Positions 32,202-36,606 of a DNA stretch of 64,000 nucleotides are shown piece by piece (the first letter of the stretch is position 1; each line of letters starts with the position of its first letter). The position numbers and the translations under genes were made by a program. Source of the DNA: Cochleicola gelatinilyticus (GTDB taxonomy: Bacteria; Bacteroidota; Bacteroidia; Flavobacteriales; Flavobacteriaceae); NCBI RefSeq assembly GCF_001637325.1, contig NZ_LRXL01000037.1:434001-498000 (forward strand), read 5' to 3'. The notes beneath the pieces are model-generated. The model did no database searches and was not told the origin of the DNA. It saw only the letters and a program-made list of their open reading frames with translations.

Positions 32202-33902
32202 TTATTTAGCATATGCTTCATCATGAACATTTGCAACAGCCCGTCCACTTGGGTCGTTCATGTTCTGAAAACTTGCATCCCATGCCAATGCTACAGGACT
32301 ACTACACGCTACACTAGGTACACTAGGTACACTTAGCGCAGCTGCATCACTCGGGAAGTGCTCTTCAAAAATAGAACGATAATAAAATTCTTCTTTACTT
32401 GTGGGTGTTTGGATAGGGAAGCGGTATTGTGCATTTGCCATTTGATCATCACTAACCTGCTGGTTTACCATTTCTTTTAATGTATCGATCCAACTATAAC
32501 CAACACCATCACTAAATTGCTCTTTTTGTCGCCATGCTACACTTTCAGGAAGCATATCCCCAAAAGCTTCTCGTAACACCCACTTTTCCATAGCTTGCTT
32601 GGTTTTAGGTCCATCTGCTTTCGCTCCTGTAACAATCATTTTATCTTTAGGATTTAAACGCATTGCGACATCCATAAATTCTTTATCTAAAAAAGGCACA
32701 CGTCCCTCAATACCCCAAGAAGCTAGCGATTTATTTGCACGAAGGCAATCGTACATGTGTAGTTTATCTAATTTCCGAACGTTCTCTTCATGAAAATCTT
32801 TTGCAGAAGGGGCTTTGTGGAAATACAGGTACCCTCCAAATATTTCATCGGCACCTTCGCCACTTAAAACCATTTTAATACCCATAGCTTTAATAGCTCT
32901 CGCAAGCAAAAACATAGGTGTGCTGGCACGAATCGTAGTAATATCATACGTCTCGACATGATAAATAACATCTCGAATGGCATCGATACCTTCCTGAATC
33001 GTGAACTTCACCTCGTGATGCACCGTACCTATATGATCTGCCACTTTTTGTGCAGCGGCAAGATCTGGAGAACCCTCTAAACCAATAGCAAAGGAATGTA
33101 ACTGTGGATACCATGCACTATCTTTGTCGCCAGTTTCAACTCGTTTGTCAGCATATTTTTTAGCCAGAGCAGAGGTGATAGACGAATCCAGACCCCCAGA
33201 CAGAAGTACTCCATAAGGTACATCGCTCATTAATTGTCTGTGAACTGCCGCATCTAATGCGTCTCTAAGATCTGAAATACTAGTTTCATTTTCTGCAACG
33301 TTGTCAAACTCCATCCAGTCACGTTTCCACCATCGTTTTAACTCACCATCCCGACTGTGTAAATAGTGTCCTGGAGGAAATAATTCTATTTTGGTACATA
33401 CTCCTTCTAGTGCTTTTAATTCTGAAGCCACATAAAATGTTCCATTTTGATCCCATCCCATATATAACGGAATAATACCCATATGGTCACGAGCAATTAA
33501 ATATTCATCTTTTTCAACATCGTATAATGCAAATCCAAAAATACCATTAAGATCATCTAAAAAATCAACACCCTTTTCTTTGTAAAGTGCAAGGATTACC
33601 TCACAATCTGATTTGGTCTGAAACTGATACGGTTTTTTTAATTCTTTTCTTAATTCCAAATGGTTATATATTTCGCCATTAGCCGCCAAAACAAGATTTT
33701 TATTTTCCGAAAACAAAGGTTGCTTCCCCGATGTTGGATCCACAATAGCCAAACGCTCATGAGCCATAATGGCTTTTTCATTATTAAATATTCCACTCCA
33801 ATCTGGTCCACGGTGACGAATACATTTAGCCATTGATAACACCTTAGGTCTTAGTTGTTCACTAGATTCTTTTAGCTGAAAAGCACATACAATTCCACAC
33901 AT
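32202..33902 (-). CDS. asnB: Glutamine-hydrolysing asparagine synthase B
   Basis: 566 aa. The N-terminal glutaminase domain begins MCGIVCAFQ with the catalytic Cys2, and the synthetase domain has the ATP loop VPYGVLLSGGLDSSITSALA and KMVLSGEGADEIFGGYLYFH. It makes asparagine from aspartate with glutamine as the amide donor. The 5' leader holds an Asn-rich leader peptide and a terminator (34019-34060 and 33961-33997), so expression is probably controlled by attenuation that responds to charged tRNA-Asn. It is transcribed away from the upstream dehydrogenase gene's stop. Confidence 0.97.
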   Translation of the reverse strand: MCGIVCAFQLKESSEQLRPKVLSMAKCIRHRGPDWSGIFNNEKAIMAHERLAIVDPTSGKQPLFSENKNLVLAANGEIYNHLELRKELKKPYQFQTKSDCEVILALYKEKGVDFLDDLNGIFGFALYDVEKDEYLIARDHMGIIPLYMGWDQNGTFYVASELKALEGVCTKIELFPPGHYLHSRDGELKRWWKRDWMEFDNVAENETSISDLRDALDAAVHRQLMSDVPYGVLLSGGLDSSITSALAKKYADKRVETGDKDSAWYPQLHSFAIGLEGSPDLAAAQKVADHIGTVHHEVKFTIQEGIDAIRDVIYHVETYDITTIRASTPMFLLARAIKAMGIKMVLSGEGADEIFGGYLYFHKAPSAKDFHEENVRKLDKLHMYDCLRANKSLASWGIEGRVPFLDKEFMDVAMRLNPKDKMIVTGAKADGPKTKQAMEKWVLREAFGDMLPESVAWRQKEQFSDGVGYSWIDTLKEMVNQQVSDDQMANAQYRFPIQTPTSKEEFYYRSIFEEHFPSDAAALSVPSVPSVACSSPVALAWDASFQNMNDPSGRAVANVHDEAYAK

Positions 33903-33960
33903 AATTCTTGATTTTATTTGGTTAAAGTTGATTTTCTAAAAAACATTTTCTTATAGCTAC

Positions 33961-33997
33961 AAAAAAAAAGCCTGTCAAGAAAAAACTTGACAGGCTT
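33961..33997 (-). terminator. Intrinsic terminator in the asnB leader (attenuator)
   Basis: On the minus strand, AAGCCTGTCAAG and CTTGACAGGCTT form a perfect 12-bp stem around a T6 loop, followed by nine T. It lies 58 bases before asnB, 21 bases past the leader-peptide stop. It could also serve as the terminator of the dehydrogenase gene upstream. Confidence 0.85.
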
Positions 33998-34017
33998 ATA
34001 TATCTCGACAAGTTTTT
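33981..34017 (-). promoter_or_regulatory. Antiterminator pairing in the asnB leader
   Basis: AAAAACTTG (34017 down to 34009), one base after the leader-peptide stop, is perfectly complementary to CAAGTTTTT (33989 down to 33981), the end of the terminator's 5' arm plus its loop. The two structures exclude each other. A ribosome finishing the leader peptide would cover the first segment and let the terminator form; stalling at Asn codons would free it. Confidence 0.65.
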
Positions 34018-34018
34018 G

Positions 34019-34060
34019 TTAAGGCATATAATTATTATTATTTGATACGTTTACTAACAT
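34019..34060 (-). CDS. Asn-rich leader peptide upstream of asnB
   Basis: A 13-codon ORF reading MLVNVSNNNNYMP, with five asparagine codons (AAC, then four consecutive AAT), followed directly by an antiterminator segment and an intrinsic terminator, and then asnB. The arrangement is that of classical amino-acid attenuators such as his, leu and thr in enterobacteria. The start is preceded by an A-rich stretch rather than a Shine-Dalgarno, as usual in Bacteroidota. It is too short to be expected by chance to carry this codon content in front of the matching biosynthetic gene. Confidence 0.75.
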   Translation of the reverse strand: MLVNVSNNNNYMP

Positions 34061-34090
34061 CTACTTGTTTTTTTGTTGCTTATTGAATTG

Positions 34091-34098
34091 CTAATGTA
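34091..34098 (-). promoter_or_regulatory. Possible -7 element for the asnB leader transcript
   Basis: The minus strand reads TACATTAG (six of the eight positions fit, counting the two n), 31 bases before the leader ATG. No convincing -33 element is seen, so this is a weak call. Confidence 0.25.
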
Positions 34099-34191
34099 GG
34101 AAAATAATTTAAAGGATCTGTTTTTTTTTGAAACTATTTACCCATTTTGTTTTTCTCTCGCTCAAAAAGTTTCCTTCTAAATTACTGAATG

Positions 34192-36606
34192 CTATCTTAG
34201 TTTAGGAAAACTAGAAGGGTTCGTTTCATGCATAATACCATAAACAGTTTCAAAGACATCCTCGATTGAAGGTTTAGAAAAATAATCTCCATCGGTTCCA
34301 TATGCTGGGCGATGTGCTTTAGCAGCCAATGCCTGAGGCTTACTGTCAAGATATTTATAGCCACCCTGAATATCTACAATATGCTGTAAAATATAAGCAG
34401 AAGCGCCTCCAGGTACATCTTCGTCGATTACTAATAAGCGGTTTGTTTTCTGCACACTCTTTACCATCTCGTGATTTAGGTCTAAAGGAAGTAGCGATTG
34501 TACATCGATAACTTCAGCGTTTATTCCTACCTGTTGTAATTCTTTGGCAGCTTCTAGAACGATGCGAAGCGTACTTCCGTAGGAAACTAATGTAATATCG
34601 GTTCCTTCTTTAACGGTTTCAACAACACCAATAGGAGTTCTAAATTCTCCTAAATTAGTAGGCATTTTTTCTTTGAGTCTATATCCATTTAAGCATTCGA
34701 TTACCAATGCTGGTTCGTCGGTTTCTAAAAGTGTATTGTAAAATCCAGCTGCTTTGGTCATGTCCCGAGGTACTAAAATATACATACCACGTAATAAATG
34801 AATTAGACCACCCATTTGCGATCCACTATGCCAGATCCCTTCCAATCGATGTCCTCGTGTACGAACAATTAAAGGAGCTTTTTGTGCCCCTTTGGTACGG
34901 TAGCGTAAAGTAACCAGGTCATCGCTCATAATTTGAAGGCAATACAATACATAATCTAAGTATTGTATTTCAGCAATAGGGCGTAAGCCACGCATAGCCA
35001 TTCCTAGTCCTTGACCCAAAATGGTAGCTTCTCGAATTCCGGTATCACTTACTCGCAACTCCCCGTATTTCTCCTGCATTCCCTCAAGACCTTGATTTAC
35101 ATCACCAATTTCTCCTGCATCTTCACCAAAAATTAATGTATTGGTATGTTTACTAAAAATAGCATCAAAATTATCTCGCAATACTACTCTTCCATCTACC
35201 TCTTCAGCATCTTCGTCGTATGTTGGTGTTACTTCGGAAACTGTTGTCGCATTTTCTTCGGCTTCAGAATAAAGATCTGATGAGTATTTGGGTTGAATGA
35301 TCTCAAAATAATTTTCAATCCATTCTTGAAGCTGTTTCTTTTCAGTAGAATTTTCACCAATTACATAGCGTAACGCTTTTCTAGCGGAAGAGATTACGTC
35401 TTTACGAAGCGGTTCTTTTTCCGAAGCAAGTTCATTTTTTATTTTTTCAATAAAATTTTTATTCGGGGAGCTTTCAGCAACATTTCCTAATAATGTAACG
35501 GCTTCCTTTTGTTCTTGCTTTTGAGGAGCTAGAAATTTTTCCCAAGCTGCTTTTTTACCTTCACGAACCTCTTTCTTAATAGTTTTTTCTATTTCGATAA
35601 GTTCCTCTTCGGTAGCCATATCGTTGGCTAGCATCCATAAGCGCATTTGTACATTACAGTCGTATTCGCGTTCCCACGCTAGACGATCTTCGCTTTTATA
35701 GCGTTCGTGCGATCCACTGGTTGAATGTCCCTGTGGTTGTGTAAGTTCTTGAACATGAATTAGTACCGGGACATGCTCTTCCCGAGCGATCTTTCCGGCA
35801 TTCTGATAGGTTTCGATAAGGGCAGGATATTCCCAACCTTTTACGCGCATGATCTCATATCCGTTTTCATCTTTGTTGCGTTGAAACCCTTTTAAAATCT
35901 CCGATATATTCTCTTTGGTAGTCTGGTGTCTCGCATGAACAGAAATTCCGTACGCATCATCCCACACACTCATCACCATAGGTACTTGTAAAACCCCTGC
36001 AGCATTGATAGTCTCCCAAAATAATCCTTCACTAGTACTTGCATTCCCAATGGTTCCCCACGCTACTTCGTTTCCATTAATTGAGAAGTTTGTCTTGTTT
36101 TCGATGCCTTTAACGTTTCTAAAAATTTTAGATGCTTGCGCTAATCCAAGTAAACGCGGCATTTGTCCTGCAGTAGGGGAGATGTCTGCACTACTGTTCT
36201 TCTGATTTGCAAGATTTTTCCAACTTCCGTCAGAATTTAAACTATGTGTTGCGAAGTGACCTCCCATCTGTCTTCCAGCACTCATAGGATCTGAATCTAA
36301 TTCGGTATGACCGTATAAACCAGCAAAAAATTGTTCGATAGTTAACTTCCCAATTGCCATCATAAAGGTTTGGTCGCGATAGTACCCACTTCGCCAATCA
36401 CCGTTTTGAAAAGCTTTCGCCCAAGCAAGTTGTGGCACTTCTTTACCGTCTCCGAAAATTCCAAATTTAGCTTTTCCCGTTAGCACCTCCCGACGCCCTA
36501 ATAAGCTACATTCACGACTGGTAACAGCGATTTTATAATCGGTTATCACTTGTGCTTTAAAGTCTTCAAAAGAAAGTTCGGTATTGGTCTTTGGGTCTGT
36601 TTGCAT
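34192..36606 (-). CDS. Fused alpha/beta 2-oxoacid dehydrogenase E1 component
   Basis: 804 aa. The N-terminal half is the alpha subunit (GDWRSGYYRDQTFMMAIGKL, PMSAGRQMGGHFATHSLNSD, ThDP-site region GNASTSEGLFWETINAAG) and the C-terminal half from about residue 470 is the beta subunit (LIFGEDAGEIGDVNQGLEG, PLIVRTRGHRLEGIWHSGSQ, VPRDMTKAAGFYNTLLETDE). Fusion of the E1 subunits is characteristic of Bacteroidota. It decarboxylates a 2-oxo acid, probably branched-chain, for an E2/E3 complex not in view. A single gene; the leader of asnB begins after its stop. Confidence 0.92.
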   Translation of the reverse strand: MQTDPKTNTELSFEDFKAQVITDYKIAVTSRECSLLGRREVLTGKAKFGIFGDGKEVPQLAWAKAFQNGDWRSGYYRDQTFMMAIGKLTIEQFFAGLYGHTELDSDPMSAGRQMGGHFATHSLNSDGSWKNLANQKNSSADISPTAGQMPRLLGLAQASKIFRNVKGIENKTNFSINGNEVAWGTIGNASTSEGLFWETINAAGVLQVPMVMSVWDDAYGISVHARHQTTKENISEILKGFQRNKDENGYEIMRVKGWEYPALIETYQNAGKIAREEHVPVLIHVQELTQPQGHSTSGSHERYKSEDRLAWEREYDCNVQMRLWMLANDMATEEELIEIEKTIKKEVREGKKAAWEKFLAPQKQEQKEAVTLLGNVAESSPNKNFIEKIKNELASEKEPLRKDVISSARKALRYVIGENSTEKKQLQEWIENYFEIIQPKYSSDLYSEAEENATTVSEVTPTYDEDAEEVDGRVVLRDNFDAIFSKHTNTLIFGEDAGEIGDVNQGLEGMQEKYGELRVSDTGIREATILGQGLGMAMRGLRPIAEIQYLDYVLYCLQIMSDDLVTLRYRTKGAQKAPLIVRTRGHRLEGIWHSGSQMGGLIHLLRGMYILVPRDMTKAAGFYNTLLETDEPALVIECLNGYRLKEKMPTNLGEFRTPIGVVETVKEGTDITLVSYGSTLRIVLEAAKELQQVGINAEVIDVQSLLPLDLNHEMVKSVQKTNRLLVIDEDVPGGASAYILQHIVDIQGGYKYLDSKPQALAAKAHRPAYGTDGDYFSKPSIEDVFETVYGIMHETNPSSFPKLR

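Follow-up and report, generated by a model that had tools for sequence, protein, structure and literature searches.

asnB of Cochleicola gelatinilyticus is very probably governed by a ribosome-mediated transcription attenuator that sets the expression of this gene by the supply of charged Asn-tRNA. This reading was obtained by analysing the window, that is, the whole stretch of 64,000 nt, together with related loci, and it draws on the parts found before asnB, their order, conservation and spacing, compensating changes and predicted folding. From these features we infer that the leader is translated, that the promoter lies where proposed below, and that expression responds to asparagine.

Arrangement of the asnB leader region

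The regulated gene would be asnB (32202..33902, minus strand), which encodes a glutamine-hydrolysing asparagine synthase B as judged from its NCBIfam and TIGRFAM matches (NF006949, 920.7 bits with a cut-off of 499; TIGR01536, 462.8 bits with a cut-off of 267.1). Upstream of it on the same strand, a leader ORF encoding MLVNVSNNNNYMP and ending in a stop codon (34019..34060, minus strand; ATG TTA GTA AAC GTA TCA AAT AAT AAT AAT TAT ATG CCT TAA) has Asn at five of its 13 codons, one at 34051..34049 and four consecutive ones at 34042..34031. One base past the leader stop (C, 34018) begins AAAAACTTG (34017..34009), which is complementary to CAAGTTTTT (33989..33981). The former, as AAAAACTTG(T), constitutes segment 2 (34008..34017, minus strand), the predicted 5′ strand of an antiterminator and 3′ strand of a protector helix; the latter is segment 3 (33981..33989, minus strand), the predicted 3′ strand of the antiterminator, which overlaps the 5′ arm and loop of an intrinsic terminator. 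Segments 2 and 3 are joined by a linker (34007..33998, minus strand). The terminator (33961..33997, minus strand) consists of a 12-bp stem (33997..33986/33979..33968), a loop of 6 and a T-run to 33961, with nine T after the GC part, two of these inside the stem; its site at 33997..33968 was the one terminator-like site in 33880..34200, a region in which 50 shuffles gave a mean of 0.1. A preliminary description of this DNA had reported a 13-codon ORF upstream of asnB with five Asn codons, four in a row, a sequence one base after its stop that is complementary to the end of the terminator's 5′ arm and its loop, and a terminator with a perfect 12-bp stem and nine T; the ORF was confirmed base for base, and the pairing and the stem were found at 34017..34009/33989..33981 and 33997..33968, respectively.

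Directly 5′ of the leader ATG lies segment 1, a putative protector, ACAAGT (34063..34068, minus strand), which is complementary to ACTTGT in segment 2. The end of the leader, namely a Pro codon (34024..34022), the stop codon TAA and the C at 34018, is a possible weak-release signature (34018..34024, minus strand). Neither the protector segment (34068..34063) nor the conserved stop context is part of the preliminary description. When the leader was folded, as that description had suggested, the 118-nt stretch 33955..34072 gave −29.4 kcal/mol compared with −15.75 ± 2.98 for shuffled versions (z −4.6). A search of the whole 64,000-nt window revealed no Rfam family at gathering score.

A putative −7 promoter box, TACATTAG (34091..34098, minus strand), ends 30 nt before the leader start and has one mismatch to TAnnTTTG, the consensus stated in PMC9723704. 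Scanning of the 52 distinct leaders described below showed that the best boxes ending at least 17 nt before the leader start had a mean score of 4.75, as against 4.31 ± 0.08 in 200 shuffles (maximum, 4.52), and that the best box lay 20 to 30 nt before the leader start in 37 of 52, with ties broken towards 30 nt. Given the putative box, transcription would start upstream of the protector.

Asn-rich leaders among asnB loci

We gathered 80 asnB loci by AsnB protein similarity alone (the best 80 of 592 confirmed), and 23 of them carried an Asn-rich mini-ORF whose start lies 118 to 262 nt upstream of asnB, with a version of AAAAACTTG and a terminator downstream of it. When 300 nt upstream of asnB were taken from the window and each of these 80 loci, mini-ORFs that start with ATG, are no longer than 20 codons and have four consecutive Asn were present in 22 of the 81 regions and in none of 20 rounds of dinucleotide shuffling. 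Three consecutive Asn were likewise present in 22 of 81, with a mean of 0.7 and at most 2 in the shuffles. Since such mini-ORFs are absent or rare in shuffled upstream regions, the Asn-rich mini-ORF is not a product of chance.

On the AsnB tree, the 24 leader-bearing rows (the window and the 23 loci) formed one side of one branch with a support of 78 (not starred), while shuffled leader labels needed 21 changes on average; a single origin of the device is therefore compatible with this protein tree. The preliminary description had made its proposal depend on the presence of the leader and its Asn codons in close relatives, and the eight rows nearest the window (a set of 9, support 99) all had the leader. 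The starred, that is, well-supported, set of 27 rows includes three leaderless ones, L021, L025 and L033 (Salinimicrobium, Gillisia and a Rufibacter record), so the absence of the leader begins close to the window's group. The AsnB of the last of these (Rufibacter latericius, NZ_RJJD01000001.1) groups with those of Salinimicrobium and Gillisia, both Flavobacteriaceae, with a support of 98; for this Hymenobacteraceae record, gene transfer or a mislabelled or contaminated contig is possible.

The named leader-bearing members include Aequorivita, Altibacter, Luteirhabdus, Gilvibacter and Thermobacterium. Rows named Maribacter, Aquimarina and Arenibacter are without a leader, as are six Flavobacterium-labelled asnB loci (L034, L036, L042, L049, L052 and L067), from which a leader-bearing MAG labelled Flavobacterium (L017) is separate on the tree. 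Among the 57 leaderless loci of the best 80 of 592, two had a mini-ORF with three Asn within four residues, with TTG/GTG starts, and the best match to the covariance model R1, described next, was at L036 (E 0.01, 616 nt before asnB). The device is missing from most of the Bacteroidota asnB genes looked at.

Spread of the device

The covariance model R1 spans the 3′-terminal 24 nt of the leader together with segment 2 and the terminator, and was built on 23 distinct sequences. It matched 45 of 397 genomes drawn from the family Flavobacteriaceae, with some matched genomes sharing sequences from which R1 was built; because R1 includes part of the Asn run, its matches lean towards leaders and may miss those without that run, a bias of which the count of 23 in 80 (best 80 of 592) is free. 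Thirty of the 45 matched genomes, the window's own included, came with loci, and asnB adjoined the match in 30 of 30; of the remaining 15, nine had asnB and six had none. Overall, the device preceded asnB in 39 of 397 family genomes and 25 of 237 genera, each of these 39 matches having an Asn-rich mini-ORF in the asnB sense, one of which (L096) starts with GTG. Searches at the order and phylum levels gave asnB-linked matches in 3 of 395 and 2 of 395 genomes, respectively, all within Flavobacteriaceae.

R1 matches without asnB in the fetched flanks were 6 of 45 in the family, 8 of 11 in the order and 3 of 5 in the phylum search; they make up 15 loci with two repeats, and the 13 different loci were inspected as candidates for further devices. 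In 12 of the 13, the match coincided with the 3′ end of a same-strand ORF, as an ordinary terminator would. At the other one, L132, the best match lay about 490 nt beyond the end of the ORF and a weaker match lay at that end. Since the non-asnB matches are read as ordinary terminators, there is no R1 case outside Flavobacteriaceae. A search without the model covered the asnB upstream regions of 24 further Bacteroidota genomes having asnB at E values up to 1e-100 (25 of 198 counting the window's genome) and found no second case of the device. Mini-ORFs upstream of asnB in three of these 24 passed a loose Asn filter, and one, MIFTFNNNNSNCLFAS (L165, genome G130), has a true Asn run; it is located some 80 nt upstream of asnB without a visible terminator in the interval, and may be a chance ORF, a remnant or a translational version of the device.

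Leader peptides and their stop context

De-duplication of 65 rows, with L092, L097, L102 and L126 added to the distinct set by hand, yielded 52 distinct leaders, of which 29 are additional to the 23 on which R1 was built. They have 11 to 19 codons and at least three Asn each, with a median of seven Asn in the 48 leaders counted. Asn is retained although 46 of 52 employ both of its codons, AAT and AAC, an indirect sign of translation. The peptides vary almost everywhere but at Asn, as seen in MSFNSLNNNNNELP, MLGFNFNLNNNNNGTP, MFTSVINNNFNNNNAKT and MFLNKNSNYQP. The distance from the last Asn run to the stop codon is exactly three codons in 44 of the 52.

The base after the leader stop is C in all 52 leaders, and the last residue is Pro in 40 (CCG 29, CCT 9, CCC 2), Thr in 11 and Arg in one. 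As background we used ORFs of at least 150 aa, excluding asnB by its start sequence, of which 46 were in the window and 186 in loci L001 to L080. There, C followed the stop codon in 5 of 46 and 21 of 186 ORFs, and the last residue was Pro in 2 of 46 and 8 of 186 and Thr in 1 of 46 and 2 of 186, respectively. In Escherichia coli, a stop codon followed by C is in a weak context. Peptides with Pro before the stop codon are a named class of ribosome-stalling peptides (PMC13410324). The Pro/Thr-stop-C ending is thus possibly a slow-release signal; kinship among the sequences and an RNA contact of these bases are other possible causes.

Competing helices

Comparison of the sequences indicated that the three competing helices are kept by compensating changes; the sequences behind the helix statistics are related to one another. 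In the terminator helix (3:4), 99.6% of cells were paired over 10 pairs in the 23 distinct sequences. Four of its pairs changed on both sides, a number reached by 18 of 500 shuffles, and its nine further pair types were reached by 500 of 500. Cells with both-side changes numbered 19 compared with 6.9 in shuffles, and neither this count nor the covariation score was reached by any of 500 shuffles. Paired with its own partner, the helix had 12.25 bp, as against 9.74 ± 0.20 with permuted partners (0 of 2000 reached the observed value). Terminator fold energies ranged from −15.6 to −24.0 kcal/mol in the 52 leaders.

For the antiterminator (2:3), 95.6% of cells were paired and 2 of 11 pairs changed on both sides (258 of 500 shuffles reached 2), with seven cells showing both-side changes compared with 2.0 in shuffles and a covariation score of 0.165 compared with 0.121, each reached by 0 of 500. 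In the subgroup that has CAGAAACTTG and CAAGTTTC, for instance, G-C replaces an A-U pair; one of the inner pairs appears as G-C (11), G-U (5), A-U (3) or unpaired (4). The own-partner helix was 8.77 bp, and permuted partners gave 8.47 ± 0.06 (0 of 2000 reached it). In the protector helix (1:2), ACAAGT(TT), adjoining the leader ATG on its 5′ side, pairs with (AA)ACTTGT downstream of the leader stop. Its mean longest helix was 6.06 bp compared with 4.46 ± 0.11 in 300 shuffles (maximum, 4.77), and other 20-nt stretches further upstream gave 4.19 to 4.85 bp; with permuted partners, 3 of 2000 reached the observed value. A core common to most sequences keeps the permutation margins of both 1:2 and 2:3 small. 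Both-side changes in the protector were found in L088 (ACAGGTTC/GAACTTGT), L097 (ACAAGCT/AGCTTGT) and L102 (AAGGT/ACCTT), and L130 has a longer helix (GCACAAG/CTTGTGC). The protector is merely 4 bp in five of 52 leaders (L015, L096, L110, L114 and L128), and lies 19 to 20 nt before the leader start in L026, L098 and L126.

No role was found for the linker (34007..33998) beyond two inner antiterminator pairs. Linkers of the TCGCGATATA type are well conserved in many members, and another subgroup has TACCCTATA. The preliminary description had proposed aligning asnB upstream regions of relatives to look for Asn-rich mini-ORFs and co-varying stems; in our comparison the leader is kept in the eight rows nearest the window, the peptides vary while Asn stays, and the terminator and antiterminator co-vary.

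Ribosome position and predicted folding

In toeprinting, the 3′ edge of the ribosome lies 12 nt beyond the A-site codon's first base, a footprint that we assumed for all leaders. Under this assumption, a ribosome whose A site is occupied by the stop codon of the window's leader covers the RNA precisely as far as AAAAACTTG extends, and one positioned on the final Asn codon of the run comes just to the first base of the stop codon. Folding was then computed with masks identical for all leaders, either free from the stop codon on or with the first 10 nt past the stop covered, the spacing differing in eight of the 52. With the ribosome stalled on Asn, 6.6 to 10.0 antiterminator pairs (2:3) were expected in all 52 leaders; with the ribosome at the stop codon, 0.0 to 1.7 were expected, again in all 52. 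With no ribosome on the leader, folding gives the protector ahead of the synthesis of segment 3 in 44 of 52 leaders (at least four expected pairs; 5.8 in the window), and once segment 3 is present, equilibrium favours 2:3 in many leaders (median, 6.6 expected pairs). Since equilibrium often favours 2:3, the no-translation branch rests on folding in the order of synthesis.

Considered as an attenuator, the locus has a leader rich in Asn, the amino acid made by the downstream gene, and an intrinsic terminator between the leader ORF and the structural gene. Its predicted antiterminator excludes the terminator, as segment 3 lies within the terminator's 5′ arm and loop, and by folding alone an Asn stall frees the antiterminator and a ribosome at the stop blocks it in 52 of 52 leaders. 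A protector (1:2) that would free the terminator without translation is also present, weak in a minority and often not favoured at equilibrium. As regards a T-box or known riboswitch, no match to a curated RNA family was found in the whole window at gathering score. The reading of the preliminary description, ribosome-mediated attenuation matched to the amino acid that asnB makes, is supported by the relatives, the covariation and the retention of Asn.

Discussion

In the mechanism that we propose, transcription would start about 25 nt upstream of the leader ORF. As long as no ribosome is loaded, segment 1 would pair with segment 2 and the terminator (3:4) could form. With ample Asn-tRNA, the ribosome would reach the stop codon and cover segment 2, again allowing the terminator to form and keeping asnB off. 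A shortage of Asn-tRNA would stall the ribosome in the Asn run, leaving segment 2 free to pair with segment 3 as the antiterminator, and RNA polymerase would read through into asnB. A slow finish at the leader stop would keep the ribosome on segment 2 until the terminator can form. We regard as plausible rather than probable a more specific version, compatible with one origin in Flavobacteriaceae, in which the device is a three-state asparagine attenuator: the protector would sit in the landing site of the leader's ribosome and the slow-release ending (Pro or Thr, stop, C) would park the finishing ribosome on the antiterminator strand, giving off without initiation, on during an Asn stall and off during slow termination.

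Could the terminator simply belong to the upstream gene? It lies downstream of a pyruvate dehydrogenase gene on the same strand, and AAT codons are abundant in AT-rich DNA, so an ordinary terminator of that gene accompanied by an Asn-rich mini-ORF arising by chance in an AT-rich intergenic region might produce a similar picture. Among the 23 loci, the gene upstream of the leader, taken as the longest ORF near it (a smaller intervening gene could be missed), is on the same strand in 21 and on the opposite strand in two, and encodes pyruvate dehydrogenase E1 in nine. Because the upstream gene differs, and is on the opposite strand in 2 of 23, the terminator is not there to serve it, and leader and terminator are kept together all the same. 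Moreover, four-Asn mini-ORFs did not occur in 20 shuffle rounds, and segment 2, which would be without a role next to a plain terminator, fits its own partners better than those of others. We consider this explanation very improbable. The same low probability applies to a riboswitch-like RNA element with a protein or small-molecule ligand, the mini-ORF being incidental. AAAAACTTGTCGCGATATA is strongly conserved in many members, as such an element might require, but no Rfam family was found at gathering score, the linker differs between subgroups (TCGCGATATA, TACCCTATA and TGCCTTATA) while pairing and Asn codons stay, and so short an element presumably has little room for a folded receptor.

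A third possibility is that the ribosome on the leader responds to an overall slowing of translation or to a signal other than Asn, by nascent-peptide arrest. TnaC-type leaders act at the stop codon, as such a leader might. Pro-stop endings are also found among ribosome-stalling peptides (PMC13410324). However, outside the Asn run the leader is hardly conserved, which sets it apart from arrest peptides; a ribosome waiting at the stop codon would cover segment 2 and turn asnB off rather than on; and Asn is the very amino acid that asnB makes. This explanation is also highly unlikely, if by a hair less so than the other two. An attenuator responding to charged Asn-tRNA remains the reading that we prefer.

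The window's genome has an asparaginyl-tRNA synthetase (asnS) and one full-length AsnB, and no AsnA-type synthetase was found in it; free asparagine can therefore supply the charged tRNA to which the leader would respond. Ahead of hisG in this genome (contig C44, about 182000–182800, minus strand, locus L149) lie a His-rich leader ORF, MTNKFLHHHHIFRFAHAR, and a strong terminator, likely a histidine attenuator, so the attenuation principle seems to be used more than once in this genome. This leader was located from the gene, the genome-wide His-codon pattern, with 60 matches, not being usable by itself. A scan ahead of the window's 58 long ORFs gave 16 rows of mini-ORFs containing three equal residues, that of asnB among them.

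The proposed device adds asparagine to the amino acids with comparative support for ribosome-mediated attenuation and places the asparagine case in Bacteroidota. The Pro/Thr-stop-C ending suggests selection on the speed of release at the leader stop codon; if the three-state version is true, the slow-release signature would act as a timing element within an attenuator, and we know of no description of such an element. Since the device works only with a ribosome close behind RNA polymerase, its presence in 25 genera argues for transcription–translation coupling, in bacteria whose translation initiation differs from that of the Shine-Dalgarno type (PMC9723704).

The literature searched, mostly without subscription papers, including the classic comparative attenuator studies, contained no paper evidently on an asparagine leader-peptide attenuator or an asnB attenuator, in agreement with the preliminary description, which knew of no described asparagine attenuator in Bacteroidota. 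Short ORFs reminiscent of leader peptides are mentioned for Bacteroides (PMC7366714), and a His leader is reported in bacilli in PMC2965389, the main text of which has no asparagine case. Asparagine and asnB do not occur in the accessible text of PMC2864571, and that of PMC4974804 has no relevant content on either.

Comparison with known systems

The device invites comparison with three kinds of regulators. Firmicutes T-box regulators with an Asn specifier sense the charging of tRNA-Asn and control terminators before asparagine genes, and the proposed device is alike in both respects. T-boxes, however, bind tRNA directly, and the window is without any Rfam match at gathering score. The ribosome-mediated attenuators of Proteobacteria (the trp, his, thr, leu, ilv and phe leaders) resemble the device in having a leader rich in the amino acid of the gene, competing protector, antiterminator and terminator helices, and ribosome position as the switch. 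They differ in that asparagine is proposed to be sensed here, and in that the protector strand here lies outside the leader ORF, just before its start, whereas theirs is within the leader codons; initiation in the host group also differs from the Shine-Dalgarno type (PMC9723704). Unusual in this device are the Pro/Thr-stop-C ending and the protector beside the leader start codon.

The third kind comprises the attenuators proposed for Flavobacterium psychrophilum, a member of the same family, for which strong clues to leader-peptide attenuation before amino-acid operons have been described, the 5′ elements before pheA and hisG being present in other genera too (PMC9723704). The kind of inference is the same, made before amino-acid biosynthesis operons, and the window's genome also has a His leader before hisG. 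They differ in that neither asparagine nor asnB occurs in the main text of PMC9723704, and the six Flavobacterium-labelled asnB loci are without a leader. Attenuation as such has already been inferred in flavobacteria (PMC9723704), and its asparagine version would be the new part.
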